Shown here in pieces: positions 8,599-56,515 of a DNA stretch of 64,000 nt. Source of the DNA: Polytrichum commune. Taxonomy: Eukaryota > Streptophyta > Polytrichopsida > Polytrichales > Polytrichaceae. Where the stretch lies: positions 34,660,001 through 34,724,000 of the forward strand of contig OX485806.1 of assembly GCA_950295325.1 (NCBI GenBank). The letters are read 5' to 3'. A program made the translations under genes and the position numbers. The notes below the pieces were generated by a model. That model was not told the origin of the DNA, searched no databases, and worked only from the letters and a program-made list of their open reading frames with translations. Every line of letters starts with the position of its first letter. The stretch's first letter is position 1.

Positions 8599-8821
8599 GT
8601 CCGGGAAAAACCGGCGGTTAGTTACAGATGAACCTGTTGAGTTTGAGAAATAACTGGTTGAAGTCGGAGACTACAGGAGAATTACCGATCATTTTAGAGG
8701 AATCTATAGAGAAATATACTTCAAATGAATCAAAGCAAAACCGGAAGATGTCAGCATATAACCGGCTGGATTTAGAATCACTCGGATCTTGACCGACTGT
8801 GCCCAAAAACTTCCCGGGCAC
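8599..8821 (-). repeat. AACCGGTT repeat, second single unit
   Basis: A 223-bp unit begins GTCCGGGAA and ends TTCCCGGGCAC. It is the same element as the unit 50 bp to its left and in the same orientation. The CCGGTT motifs here are partly mutated (AACCTGTT, AACTGGTT). Confidence 0.7.
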
Positions 8822-10407
8822 TGGTAGGTGGAGAACAGTCGGGGATTTGCTGTTGGATCAGGAATTTCTAAAGGCCCCCACCTCCCCCGGCATGCGCCCA
8901 TGTCACAGGTTATCCTATCCCATGTCGGATTCGTATGAGTCAACTTTGGAAACCAAACGTGAAGATGAGTTGTTCGAGAACAAGCCTTCAATAATTGGGG
9001 ACTCAGTACTTGCGGCTCCTATACAGATGACAGAATATTGTCACAGCCGGCTAGAATATTGCAGGGCCCTCCACATGTATTTATCTATTGGAGTTCCACC
9101 AACACTCTTTGGACTTCATACATTTGGCTCATCCCACGTCTCCCATGTCACCTTCTGACATTAAATGTCCAAGTTCGGAAACTGGGACACCATCCGAGTT
9201 CACAGTTATGTTAACTTACTCATGCAGCTCAACTTTGCAGACCGGTTCTTCTTAAGTAGCTTTTTGCATGTTTGGTGGCCAAGATGGAGCGTACGTCACG
9301 CCTTTCTCATGGGGCGAGATTGGCCTCCTTTACGCTAACTGAAGTTAGAGAGGTCGTGACCTCGAATATTTGAGAGCTCAAAGAAATTAACGTAGATGGG
9401 TCTTGAATGGTTACTTATGGGTCTTGAATGTTTATTTTTTTCTGATTAGCCCACTTCTCCTTGGATATGAAACGCATGATTAGTATGAGATGGTTAGCAA
9501 ATCCAAATTGAGGCCGTAGTCATTTTCCTTATAATTTCAGAGCTCATATGAATATCTCATGCATTATCAAAGTGAAGATTCTTGTGCTCCTGAAATGGTC
9601 GTATAAATCGATTCTGATGTTACAGGTCATGCCTGTAAATCTTGCACATTATACACCTTCAATTCCAGAACTACAAATTAAAGTATTGAGAAAGTAATGC
9701 AGCGATGAAACTCCCGTCTACTAATTTGTAATGCTGACATATACAGATCAAATGGATCAATTATACTGCTTATGTGAAACATGGAAAAGGGCATATTGAA
9801 ATTCTTGGGCAAGAAATTGGATTCAACAACATGATTTGTTTCTGTGAGAATGATTCATTAGACATCATTTGAAGGCTGACATTTTTTTCTAAGTTGGAAG
9901 ATTTATTGTGCACGTTCAGAGCAGGAAGGTTCGGGGCTAGACAGGAGTCAACACAAGAACACATTTAGAAATGTCTTTTTTGACATGTGTTTATTTCCTC
10001 TCTTCCTGTATTTATAATCCAACGTCAACATTTGAGCACGCTCAGGTATGTGGGCCTATTGTGGACTCTTCCAACTTCACAAACAATTTTGGCCGTTGGA
10101 TTGGACAGGATATCATCTCATCCGATTAGCAATTCTGAATCACAAATTACATTCACAACCTCTATTAATTATATTGAGTACATTTACCGGGAGGAGATCC
10201 TTGAATTCAAGAAAAGAAAAGGAAATTCCAATGCTTTGCACCAACATGAATATGAGCATGTTAGTCTTATGATGATCATGTTTAACCATGATGCACGATG
10301 GGACGTTATGCCTCCCTTTCGGGAGGTGGGCTCTATTATATAATATAGGGGAGAAGGGGTTTGAGACTAGTGACAATATCTCTAGGGAAGCCAACCTAGC
10401 ATGCAAT
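8822..10407. other. Intergenic; one partial dispersed repeat
   Basis: No gene recognised. About 9395-9600 (GGGTCTTGAATGGTTAC, then CTCCTTGGATATGAAACGC) matches the right-hand part of the 360-bp repeat seen whole at 36045-36410 and 46985-47360, in the orientation of the latter. The section 10040-10160 carries a GGCCGTTGGATTGGAC-type block. Relatives near 26860 and 44230 mark another dispersed repeat. Confidence 0.45.
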
Positions 10408-27413: not shown

Positions 27414-27616
27414 GTTGAGGATTGCAAGTTAGTGGAAGAGCCATCAGTCGTGTGGACACAATGCTTGCAATTATGACACACATGACCAAATTCTCACTAG
27501 AAATGATTTTTTTAGATGTACCCCAATGTATTTTTAATGCATGGGGAAAAGTGTTGTAAGAGTACAAGAAAGAGATCAATTATGATGATAGTCTTGTAAA
27601 GTTTGATATGGTGTTG

Positions 27617-27638
27617 GGGGGGGGGGGGGGCGGGGATG
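27617..27638. repeat. Poly-G tract
   Basis: A run of G interrupted once by C, close to the left of the transposon at 27721. The element itself begins with six G; no relation between the two is shown. Confidence 0.7.
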
Positions 27639-27720
27639 AACTAATTTTTCAGAGGTCTAATGATAAAATTGTGTGAAACATTAGAAAGTCTAATGTTGGT
27701 TTCGTCAATCATGCTTAGAC

Positions 27721-28505
27721 CTCGGGGGGTGCACTGTACTAAACATGTACGAGTATACGTGAGTGCACAGGAGGGGTATTGATTTGGACCTTGCCGTATT
27801 ACGTATACATATGGTATACATGTTATAATTTATAGTTACGTACATATATGGAAGGCCTTTAAAAAACATACAATAATTGTACTTGTATGGTACTGTTACT
27901 ATACTACATATCATAAGTTTTCATATTGGATGAAATTAGGATTAACTAGGATTAACGATCTTTGTTAGCAACTTTATAGGGTAGTATGAACCATGTACAA
28001 GGTGTCAAGGTAATATCAGGGAAAGAGGCAATATTAGGGTTTTGAAATGATTCGTTCAACTCAAAGTAACAAGGAGATTGGTTTATGTTGGTATCAAAAA
28101 GGGGCTAACAACAATTGGACATATGATCTTACTGATCATTTGATGGTAGACTTAGAGACAATAATTGCATTGGCTACAATGACATATATTGGTGAATCAA
28201 ATGTTTATGAGTTACATCCGGGAGATGAAAAAGTTTTCAACGACTTTGCTGATGAAGCTAGGATAGTTTGTTATACATATTATAAGGGTTGATTATTGTT
28301 CAAAAGTATATTTGTATACTTATGTCAATGACTATATATGAATGGATGTTTTTTTTGTGTATACATATTGTCACTTGTATATTTATTGTTGCAATTGTAT
28401 GTGTATTACTTCATTTCACAAAAAATAACTTGTATATAGGGGGTTTTTAGAGTATGCAGTGAACGCACGTGATTCTAGGTTTTAATGAAAGGTGCACCCC
28501 CCGAG
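27721..28505 (+). mobile_element. hAT-like transposon with CTCGGGGGGTGCAC ends (copy 1)
   Basis: A 785-bp element has perfect 14-bp terminal inverted repeats (CTCGGGGGGTGCAC ... GTGCACCCCCCGAG). It is flanked by the exact 8-bp direct repeat GCTTAGAC (27713-27720 and 28506-28513). The 8-bp duplication points to hAT or another 8-bp-TSD superfamily. A second copy lies at 55633-56356; outside one replaced central segment (27937-28072 here) the two differ at only a few positions. Carries one open frame (28047-28292). Too short to encode a full transposase. Confidence 0.92.
28047..28292 (+). CDS. Conserved transposon-borne frame, unknown function
   Basis: An 81-codon frame starts at an ATG and lies wholly inside the transposon. 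I recognise no domain. From residue 10 on (EIGLCWYQKG) it is nearly identical to the frame in the second copy at 55633-56356, including the motif ELHPGDEKVFNDFAD. A decayed relative at 44.85 kb keeps ELHP.DE.MFNDF. Preservation of these residues at a third, much more diverged locus suggests that this was once a real coding segment, possibly the C-terminal part of a transposase or a captured host exon. The first nine codons differ between the copies, so the start is uncertain. Confidence 0.4.
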   Translation: MIRSTQSNKEIGLCWYQKGANNNWTYDLTDHLMVDLETIIALATMTYIGESNVYELHPGDEKVFNDFADEARIVCYTYYKG

Positions 28506-28513
28506 GCTTAGAC

Positions 28514-43935: not shown

Positions 43936-44820
43936 AATGATGTGGTCAATATTTCTTCATCGTGCAGTCCACATCACATCAAACGCAGAAAATGCCTTTG
44001 GAAGCTCTCGACTGTGAGTGAATTTAGTGAGAGAGAGGTTGTGAGGTACAGCCAAATGATGATTTTAGAAGTTGTGTACTTAACTACCAAGACTTTCAGT
44101 TCCACAAGCTTGACAATACAATGTAGGGTGCAAATTACTTCAAGGGAATTATGTACTCAAAGCAAGGGTCGATAAGATTAGGACGGAACTTGGAACCCAA
44201 AGTCATGCGTTTGTTCAAACAACATGTATGTGGCCCTATTGTGGGCACTTCCAACTCAACAAACAATCTTGATCATTGGATCATAATGGGAATTGTCTCA
44301 TTCTATGAGGAAGTATAAACGACGAAGGTTGTCATTTCAATTTCAAGTTTCAAAATCAGAGTTGAGATGCAAACACTATAAGTGAAGATGTCCTTTCTTG
44401 TTAAGTGAGCACAATGTCCTTGGGGTTTGGACTCTTCATACCATGTATGAACTAACATGAGTGTAAGAACGGGTATTATTTGAGGCATTAGCGTACATAG
44501 TATACCTAAGAGAGAGGTATTATTTTGTTCTAGTGTGTACATTTAATAAGAAGGCTTCAAGAATGTTGAAGTAAAGGGAGATGTACAAAAGGAGCCCCTA
44601 GGGTTTAGAGAAAAATTTGACAATAGATGTGCTAGTTCCATCTAATTCACATTTTCATTCATTGTTGTCATATGGTAATAGTCCTCAATGACTACCTTGT
44701 CCAGTCTTCTTGGGGTTTGCATTTGGGTTTCAGGTTTTTACAAACTCTGGAAGCTCATGAAGCACTCATGGGCTCCCTTGAGTTTTTCTCTCTAGATTGT
44801 GGCTAAGTTATTATGGTTTC
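43936..44820. other. Intergenic, with repeat fragments
   Basis: No gene. Around 44230-44420 are fragments (CCCTATTGTGGGCACTTCCA, then TTTCAAAATCAGAGTTGAGA) related to sequence at 10050 and 58810. Nothing further recognised. Confidence 0.4.
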
Positions 44821-44825
44821 TTGTC

Positions 44826-45104
44826 TTCATTTGCTTGATGCAATCGTTGAGTTACATCCTATGGATGAAAATATGTTCAATGACTTTCTTATTGGAAAGT
44901 GAAAGTGGACTTTATATGTAATAAATGCTTATTTAATTTGAGATTGTTACTTGGTATATGTTGTGGAGGCATGTATTACCATTACATTGAAAAGCTTTGT
45001 ATGAGTCCATCTTCTAGCCTATTGTTAGTACGTACACATTGTTTTTCTCTATAAACTTCTTATATAAAGGGGGTTTAATTTCATAGCAAGTCCACCCCCT
45101 AGGC
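44826..45104 (+). mobile_element. Decayed relative of the CTCGGGGGGTGCAC transposon
   Basis: GAGTTACATCCTATGGATGA, then AATATGTTCAATGACTTTCT, is a diverged form of the ELHPGDEKVFNDF segment of the transposon frame at 28047-28292. About 160-200 bases later the sequence follows the same plan, with CTTATATAAAGGGGGTTTAA and a terminus GTCCACCCCCTAGG in place of GTGCACCCCCCGAG. The left end was not found, so it is truncated or too diverged. Confidence 0.5.
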
Positions 45105-55380: not shown

Positions 55381-55632
55381 ATAGTCGGTCAAGATCCTAG
55401 TGATTCTAAATCCAACCGGTTACATGTTGACATCTTCCAGTATTCCTTTATTCACTTGAGGTGTATTCTATACATTCTTCTAAAATGCTCAGTAATTCTC
55501 CTGAAATCTCCAACTTCAACTGGTTATTTCTCAAACTCAACCGGTTCTCCCCGAGCAGTGATCGGGGAGATTTTTGGGCATAATCGGTTGAGATCCTAGT
55601 GTTTGCAAGTCCAACCGGTTACATGTTGGCAT

Positions 55633-56356
55633 CTCGGGGGGTGCACTGTACTAAACATGTACGAGTATACGTGAGTGCACAGGAGGGGTATTGATTTGGA
55701 CCTTGCCGTATTACGTATACATATGGTATGCATGTTATAATTTATAGTTACGTACATATATGGAAGGCCTTTAAAAAGTATACAATAATTGTACTTGTAT
55801 GGTACTGTTATTATACTACATATCATAAGTTTTCATATTGGATGAAATAGTTTGGAAATCGTTGGGTAATCGTTGGGTGGAGTATAGGGATCCAATTGAC
55901 TTGATGGACCGTCCATCAAACGTGGAGATTGGTTTATGTTGGTATCAAAAAGGGGCTAACAACAAGTGGACATATGATCTTACTGATCATTTGATGGTAG
56001 ACTTAGAGACAATAATTGCATTGGCTACAATGACATATATTGGTGAATCAAATGTTTATGAGTTACATCCGGGAGATGAAAAAGTTTTTAACGACTTTGC
56101 TGATGAAAGCTAGGATATTTTGTTATACATATTATAGGGGTTGATTATTGTTCAAAAGTATATTTGTATACTTATGTTAATGACTATATATGAATGGATG
56201 TTTTTTTGTGTATACATATTGTCACTTGTATATTTATTGTTGCAATTGTATGTGTATTACTTCATTTCACAAAAAATAACTTGTATATAGGGGTTTTTTA
56301 GAGTATGCAGTGAACGCACGTGATTCTAGGTTTTAATGAAAGGTGCACCCCCCGAG
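55633..56356 (+). mobile_element. hAT-like transposon with CTCGGGGGGTGCAC ends (copy 2)
   Basis: A 724-bp element has the same perfect 14-bp terminal repeats as copy 1 (27721-28505). It is flanked by the exact 8-bp direct repeat GTTGGCAT (55625-55632 and 56357-56364). Apart from a replaced central segment (55849-55923 here, 75 bases; 136 bases in copy 1), the two copies differ at only a few positions, so both moved recently. It sits inside an AACCGGTT unit. Confidence 0.93.
55838..56113 (+). CDS. Transposon-borne frame, second copy
   Basis: The frame is open from 55838; the first ATG in frame is at 55904 (69 codons). Shares EIGLCWYQKGANN and ELHPGDEKVFNDFADE with the frame at 28047-28292. 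Upstream of the shared part it reads SLGNRWVEYRDPIDLMDR, which is absent from copy 1. One extra A after GATGAA shifts the frame and ends it about 11 codons early. Function unknown. Confidence 0.35.
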   Translation: MDEIVWKSLGNRWVEYRDPIDLMDRPSNVEIGLCWYQKGANNKWTYDLTDHLMVDLETIIALATMTYIGESNVYELHPGDEKVFNDFADES

Positions 56357-56515
56357 GTTGGCATCCTCCGGCTTTCCTTTATTAAACTGGGGTATATTCT
56401 ATAAATTCCTTTAAAATGATCGGTAATTTTCCTGCAGTCTTGAACTTCAACCGGTTATTTCTCAGACTCAACCGGTTCATTTGTAACCAACTGTCGGTTC
56501 TCCCCGATCATTGTC

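Follow-up and report, generated by a model that had tools for sequence, protein, structure and literature searches.

Two short transposon-like elements in a window of 64,000 nt, the whole stretch of DNA that was analysed, carry the same open reading frame without a recognised domain, and the locus raises the question of where that frame comes from and what moves the elements that contain it. We conclude that the two elements, copy A and copy B, are internally deleted derivatives of a ~9.1-kb cut-and-paste transposon of the host plant, probably moved in trans by a ~1500-aa protein that would be an RNase H-fold DDE transposase. The coordinates of both copies, of their component parts and of their relatives are collected in Table 1; positions of the copies and duplications are given on the whole 64,000-nt stretch.

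Table 1. Copies A and B, their parts and their relatives (positions without a prefix are those of the window).
Feature	Location	Strand	Size	Description
Copy A	27721..28505	+	785 bp	Non-autonomous element, internal-deletion derivative
Copy A left target-site duplication	27713..27720	.		GCTTAGAC
Copy A right target-site duplication	28506..28513	.		GCTTAGAC
Copy A 5' part	27721..28075	+		Parent 1-355, 96.3% identical
Copy A 3' part	28073..28505	+		Parent 8716-9148, 96.8% identical
Copy A left subterminal motif	27756..27763	+		TACGTGAG, identified by eye at the termini of two families of elements
Copy A right subterminal motif	28464..28471	-		CACGTGCG, reading inward from the right end, by eye
Copy A remnant of the parent transposase C-terminus	28065..28259	+	65 codons	By protein alignment
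Copy B	55633..56356	+	724 bp	Non-autonomous element, internal-deletion derivative
Copy B left target-site duplication	55625..55632	.		GTTGGCAT
Copy B right target-site duplication	56357..56364	.		GTTGGCAT
Copy B make-up	Filler at 55849-55860	+		Parent 1-216 + 12 filler bases + parent 8653-9148
Copy B remnant of the parent transposase C-terminus	55856..56113	+	85 codons	By alignment; usual stop codon
Decayed relative of A and B	44419..45102	+	684 bp	Ends CTTGGGG.../...CCCCCTAG degenerate; ELHP.DE..FNDF stretch present
Parent element	G000:C4:55005007-55014154		9148 bp	Ends CTCGGGGGGTGCAC (14 bp) as in A and B, exact 8-bp duplication GTTTATTT
C5 element (L039 plus L069)	G000:C5		8426 bp	Ends CTCGGGGG / CTCGGGGGGGG, exact duplication GTGATTTC, uninterrupted 1518-codon frame

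The original prediction described two copies with perfect ends, different exact duplications and few differences, and all of this holds. Both are bounded by perfect 14-bp inverted ends, CTCGGGGGGTGCAC (27721-27734 and 28492-28505 in copy A, 55633-55646 and 56343-56356 in copy B), each is flanked by its own exact 8-bp duplication, and the two stretches in which they align, of 434 and 216 bases, show 98% identity. Within the window the 14-mer has four matches at up to two mismatches, a number reached in none of 100 shuffles, and across the 408-Mb host assembly it occurs exactly 721 times (355 forward, 366 reverse) against 7 times for a control read backwards. A run of G lies at 27616-27630, ~90 bases to the left of the end of copy A. 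The far more decayed relative that had been proposed at 44.85 kb is also real and extends to a whole element, with the core residues kept and identity at 430 of the 657 bases aligned (score 67, compared with -25 for the best of 200 shuffles); no clear target-site duplication was found at its flanks.

A six-frame search of the genome with the 81-aa frame yielded 2191 candidate places, of which 150 were scored, and all 150 match. The frame is indeed shared by copies A and B, but its 81-aa form is not the usual one: at 146 of the 150 places a TAG lies inside the frame, its usual position being just after ...FADES, and the four places without that TAG are copy A and three others, each with a one-base deletion and all at different positions. 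The 81-aa form arises through frameshift, several times independently. Its first codons are joined 5' DNA and its last seven are the product of the one-base deletion, through which copy A reads beyond its normal stop as far as 28292. DNA homology of the 3' part to the parent begins at 28073. A Pfam search with the 81-aa frame gave only sub-threshold matches, which were taken as chance, and the C-terminal piece from the window, folded from its single sequence with a mean pLDDT of 57.7, returned 291 Foldseek matches at E <= 10 and none at E <= 0.001. The C-terminal region has a BAH-like look in its pattern, for which no tool gave support.

One of the 150 scored places holds a 796-codon open frame, and the segment there ends a 1450-codon frame with two in-frame stops. 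At this parental locus on C4 the right-hand 14-mer lies 230 bases past the stop codon and the left end is 9 kb away. A full-length element bearing the CTCGGGGGGTGCAC ends, which the original prediction had proposed to look for, thus exists, although its ~1450-codon frame is interrupted by the two stops; no intact transposase of the CTCGGGGGGTGCAC subfamily is present among the matches listed, and the nearest other relative of the C4 parent has two TAG codons in its first 385. Copies A and B both keep the two ends of this one longer element and are without ~8.4 kb of its middle, and exact target-site duplications are found at the derivatives and at the parent alike. In copy A the deletion junction is marked by a 3-base overlap of the 5' and 3' parts. 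As judged from the alignments, the frame in A and B corresponds to the final 65-85 codons of the parental protein, retained because these codons adjoin the right end of the parent. The suggestion that it might be the last part of a parental transposase was therefore correct, the segment being the C-terminus of a ~1450-codon protein inside an element that shares the 14-bp ends and whose 8-bp duplication is exact. What had looked puzzling is ordinary, namely a transposase tail left over in deletion derivatives.

Other derivatives were sampled as 27 chromosome-1 elements, picked only as pairs of the 14-mer among the first 100 places listed; terminal repeats alone were used because a choice of copies by their frame was to be avoided. 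Exact 8-bp duplications flank 23 of the 27, with one base off in two, two bases off in one and no duplication in one. Twenty-six elements were mapped, the nested locus L067 being left out, and 24 of these consist of the parental ends with differing central deletions, a few with further insertions; the remaining two are 271-bp elements that keep only more diverged ends. The deletion classes are recurrent, at about 785, 713-716, 1270 and 1396 bp. Three 1270-bp derivatives (L045, L051 and L053) are 100% identical and have three different duplications, and the two 271-bp copies are likewise 100% identical with two different duplications. Identical sisters thus occupy different sites, and the movement of some derivatives must therefore be very recent, with copies A and B, which differ by 3-5% from their sampled sisters, being older than these identical sets. 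The sequence preference across 37 exact duplications is weak, approximately GTT at the beginning with its complement at the other end.

Two arrangements stand apart from this pattern. L067 (G000:C1:29943280-29944917) contains two inversely oriented derivatives inside one outer pair of ends with the exact duplication GAATGATG, and is either a nested insertion or a composite. L026 and L027 (C2, 24.39 and 24.43 Mb) are of equal element length and have the same duplication 45 kb apart, which suggests a segmental duplication.

The frame had also been described as conserved, which is true only in the sense that it is young. Among the 27 sampled elements the 65-codon segment has accumulated 76 non-synonymous changes, 25 synonymous changes and 3 stops, near the neutral expectation of 72:23:5% (as distinct changes, 38, 15 and 2), and the coding part varies by 2.2% compared with 1.0% for the adjoining 3' non-coding part. 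In this sample the changes look neutral, and the frame owes its survival to the youth of the copies and not to a function. A comparison of synonymous and non-synonymous changes, proposed with the original prediction, thus gives no sign of selection, and the random breakage that was expected to count against a conserved frame is present, three further copies being shifted by different one-base deletions. Neutral counts together with these deletions identify a leftover frame without selection.

It is very improbable that the derivatives still make a functional short protein from the frame, for example a transposition repressor. Truncated P-element proteins repress transposition, and the frame here is open in most sampled derivatives (a stop in 3 and an indel in 1 of the 27, with the segment missing from 2), but few stops would be expected anyway in copies this young, and the ratio of non-synonymous changes, synonymous changes and stops is the neutral one given above. 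The start of the frame, moreover, differs between deletion classes, being drawn from 5' non-coding or filler DNA, and the frame of copy A, like that of three other copies, is shifted by a one-base deletion of independent origin. That a small transposon captured a host gene exon (transduplication), possibly still translated, is scarcely credible and this part of the original prediction can be set aside: two separate copies do share a frame without a known domain, but the segment lies in frame at the C-terminus of the parent's own 1450-codon frame, the junction is flanked on either side by parental DNA, and changes in the coding part are neutral and at least as frequent as those in the 3' non-coding part.

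Searching the genome with the core of the protein produced 97 matches (93 scored of 238 candidates), several of them in uninterrupted frames of 1493-1549 codons. The C5 element (Table 1) is matched by near-identical DNA (99.3-99.5%) at two other fetched places, and a diverged branch of the family is 34% identical. In the C5 element ~3.1 kb precede the frame. Of 45 pairwise comparisons, 41 lay past the pS cut of 0.74 and were given no value; the full-length pair L071/L075 has a dN/dS of 0.17 over 1141 codons, and the other three reported pairs have values of 0.28 and 0.33, both near saturation, and 0.61 for a nearly identical pair; an additional comparison, of a piece of L036 with L074, was discarded because the two were aligned out of register. 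The near-identical C5 copies, with dN 0.003-0.004 and dS 0.005, differ too little for a judgement. When ten family sequences are aligned, all ten have AED706ET, SD825, QD872xxH875 and SDxCE1067xFFS without variation, and D974, within IDIF, is D in eight and E in two.

Beside the diverged transposase gene at L036 we observed a 286-bp element (L036:6380-6665) with ends CTCGGGGGGTTCAC and flanks CCAACAAG. The same locus contains, upstream of that transposase frame, a cysteine-rich frame of 414 codons (L036:412-1656) with no Pfam match above the cut-off, which may be a first exon or else a separate gene.

Copies A and B also share a subterminal motif, (T/C)ACGTG(A/C)G, which was read by eye and starts 35-36 bases inside both ends of each copy. 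The motif occupies the same positions at the two ends of the C4 parent, and in the C5 element its counterparts, also read by eye, are TACGTGCG on the left (39-46) and TAGGTGCG on the right (36-43). We regard this ACGTGmG motif as a candidate transposase-binding site.

No match above chance was obtained when the family members tried were searched against Pfam, NCBIfam and PDB sequences. NCBIfam gave no matches at all, and the sub-threshold Pfam and PDB matches (pAdhesive_6, Sushi, AT_hook, ZF-HD_dimer, Angiomotin_C, Thioredoxin_4 and others) were taken as chance. Because these searches miss the family, genome annotation would probably label the genes of the family unknown proteins and treat the derivatives as anonymous repeats. 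Relatives were also sought in viral_contigs and genome_contigs, where a pattern matched 56 and 20 stretches respectively, none of which was confirmed. By title or abstract start, no plant element of this kind was found in a partial literature library without Repbase, and we do not claim that the family is unpublished.

An indication of what the enzyme might be comes from the order of its acidic residues. The P signature is D230, D303, D339xxH and E531, with D444 essential and contacting GTP, and the corresponding THAP9 residues are D304, D374, D414, D519 and E613, as given in PMC8230255. The family residues D706, D825, D872xxH875, D974 and E1067 follow in the same order, and on the residue numbers in PMC8230255 the last three intervals are 47/102/93 in the family, 36/105/87 in P and 40/105/94 in THAP9, while the first, D706-D825, is 119 in the family and shorter in P (73) and THAP9 (70).

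Profile comparisons, made with hhalign in local alignment, gave weak scores. The family profile against P or Hermes alone scored at the level of shuffles (of five shuffles, one was above the P score and one equal to it), and in a larger test 64 of 500 shuffles scored as well as P. Against a combined P+THAP9 profile the score was 30.4, as high as which only 1 of 250 column shuffles came; with the core extended slightly the score was 28.2, which 1 of 250 shuffles likewise reached, and the reversed profile gave 19.2-19.3. The best local alignments were nevertheless in register, placing E1067 on P E531, D974 on THAP9 D519 and E1067 on what we take to be residue E572 of Hermes. Any landmark was in register in 0 of 300 shuffles for each of P, THAP9 and Hermes (0 of 900), the landmark residues having been named ahead of this test, yet after a by-eye comparison of the family with P.

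The best reading of these sequences is that the enzyme would belong to the DDE group of P, hAT, MuDR, Kolobok and Dada and would be most P-like, its superfamily not being assignable by sequence. The host is probably a bryophyte or some other non-flowering plant: a plastid-like contig (G000:C8) with rbcL and a 315-codon frame that we read as accD also has two long frames of the nitrogenase-like oxidoreductase family (PF00148), which we take to be chlB and chlN, genes missing from the plastids of flowering plants. It was not filed as a P element because the P-type Pfam models (TNP-like RNase H and THAP), when tested, matched none of the members scanned. PF21787 had no match in the G000 genome, nor in 14 control genomes, and alone this shows nothing; P-element relatives, sought in viral_contigs and genome_contigs as material for a P profile, were not found there.

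Two other placements of the parent have to be weighed against a P-like one. It may, though we doubt it, represent a superfamily of its own in the DxxH group, at equal distance from each of P, hAT, MuDR, Kolobok and Dada: no profile matches it to a known family, the C5 element has its own ends CTCGGGGG, and the protein is about twice the length of P or Hermes, with N- and C-terminal regions that match no known domain. The order and spacing of the motifs are P-like, however, which argues against equal distance. It is unlikely that the parent is instead a hAT (or MuDR) element with an extremely diverged transposase. Duplications of 8 bp fit hAT as well, the region of the third acidic residue is in register with Hermes, and DxxH is common to these groups; but neither hAT nor MULE Pfam models match the members scanned, and the IDIF-x-S stretch is shared with THAP9 in a 49-column alignment and less closely with P, among the three enzymes compared (P, THAP9 and Hermes).

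On our main reading, the transposase of a full-length relative would move copies A and B in trans. It would bind the 14-bp ends, and perhaps also the subterminal ACGTGmG motifs, excise the element and insert it with an 8-bp stagger. The ordered invariant residues point to a ~1500-aa protein that would be an RNase H-fold DDE transposase with a C/DxxH motif, its active site probably split by a long insertion as in the P element and THAP9 transposases, and possibly binding a nucleotide through the P-type IDIF/FDIF motif.

The interest of the locus lies in this enzyme, which is abundant, with derivatives that have recently moved and several copies that are uninterrupted, and to which the standard family searches run here are blind. 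We propose tentatively, and with somewhat less than even confidence, that it represents a plant cut-and-paste lineage with ~1500-aa transposases, very recent movers and an intact candidate autonomous element, being either a new DxxH superfamily or a very diverged, THAP-less branch of P. The P superfamily is further marked by a GTP-binding insertion domain and by cleavage with a 17-nt stagger. If the enzyme is P-like, it would extend the GTP-using mechanism of transposition to plants; to our knowledge, that mechanism has so far been described from animals. On a practical level, the ends and an uninterrupted ~1500-aa frame are candidate parts for testing a new laboratory transposon.

Among known systems, Dada, Kolobok and MuDR resemble the family in having C/DxxH between the second D and the E (PMC9587614 and PMC3706591). 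The family is unlike them in its duplications, which are 8 bp and varied in sequence where Kolobok has TTAA and Dada 6-7 bp in small-RNA genes, and in that no MULE transposase domain was matched by Pfam in the members scanned. Nor did those members match the KDZ transposase domain of KDZ / Zisupton. The P superfamily (Drosophila P element, THAP9/Pdre2), as described in PMC7776569 and PMC8230255, shares with the family 8-bp duplications, short inverted ends, subterminal motifs, internally deleted copies and the order D..D..DxxH..(F/I)DIF..E in which the three final intervals are of similar length; a possible coiled coil preceding the catalytic region, hinted at by a GCN4-type PDB match (E 0.4-1), is a further likeness. 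The family differs from P in a protein of about 1500 aa, about twice P length, in its longer D-D interval, in its lack of any P-type Pfam match, and in its plant host, THAP domains being reported as restricted to animals (PMC7776569). An 8-bp duplication is equally characteristic of hAT (Hermes, Ac), whose glutamate motif, in Hermes, is in register with that of the family, but the members scanned match neither the hAT dimerisation domain nor the BED zinc finger in Pfam, and the profile score is not significant. The closest parallels to copies A and B themselves are the Ds type and the P deletion derivatives, which are internally deleted non-autonomous elements: here too the ends are intact, the centre is lost, the junctions have short overlaps or filler, and mobilisation would be in trans. 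There is no essential difference from these elements; several deletion classes here each recur at many places.
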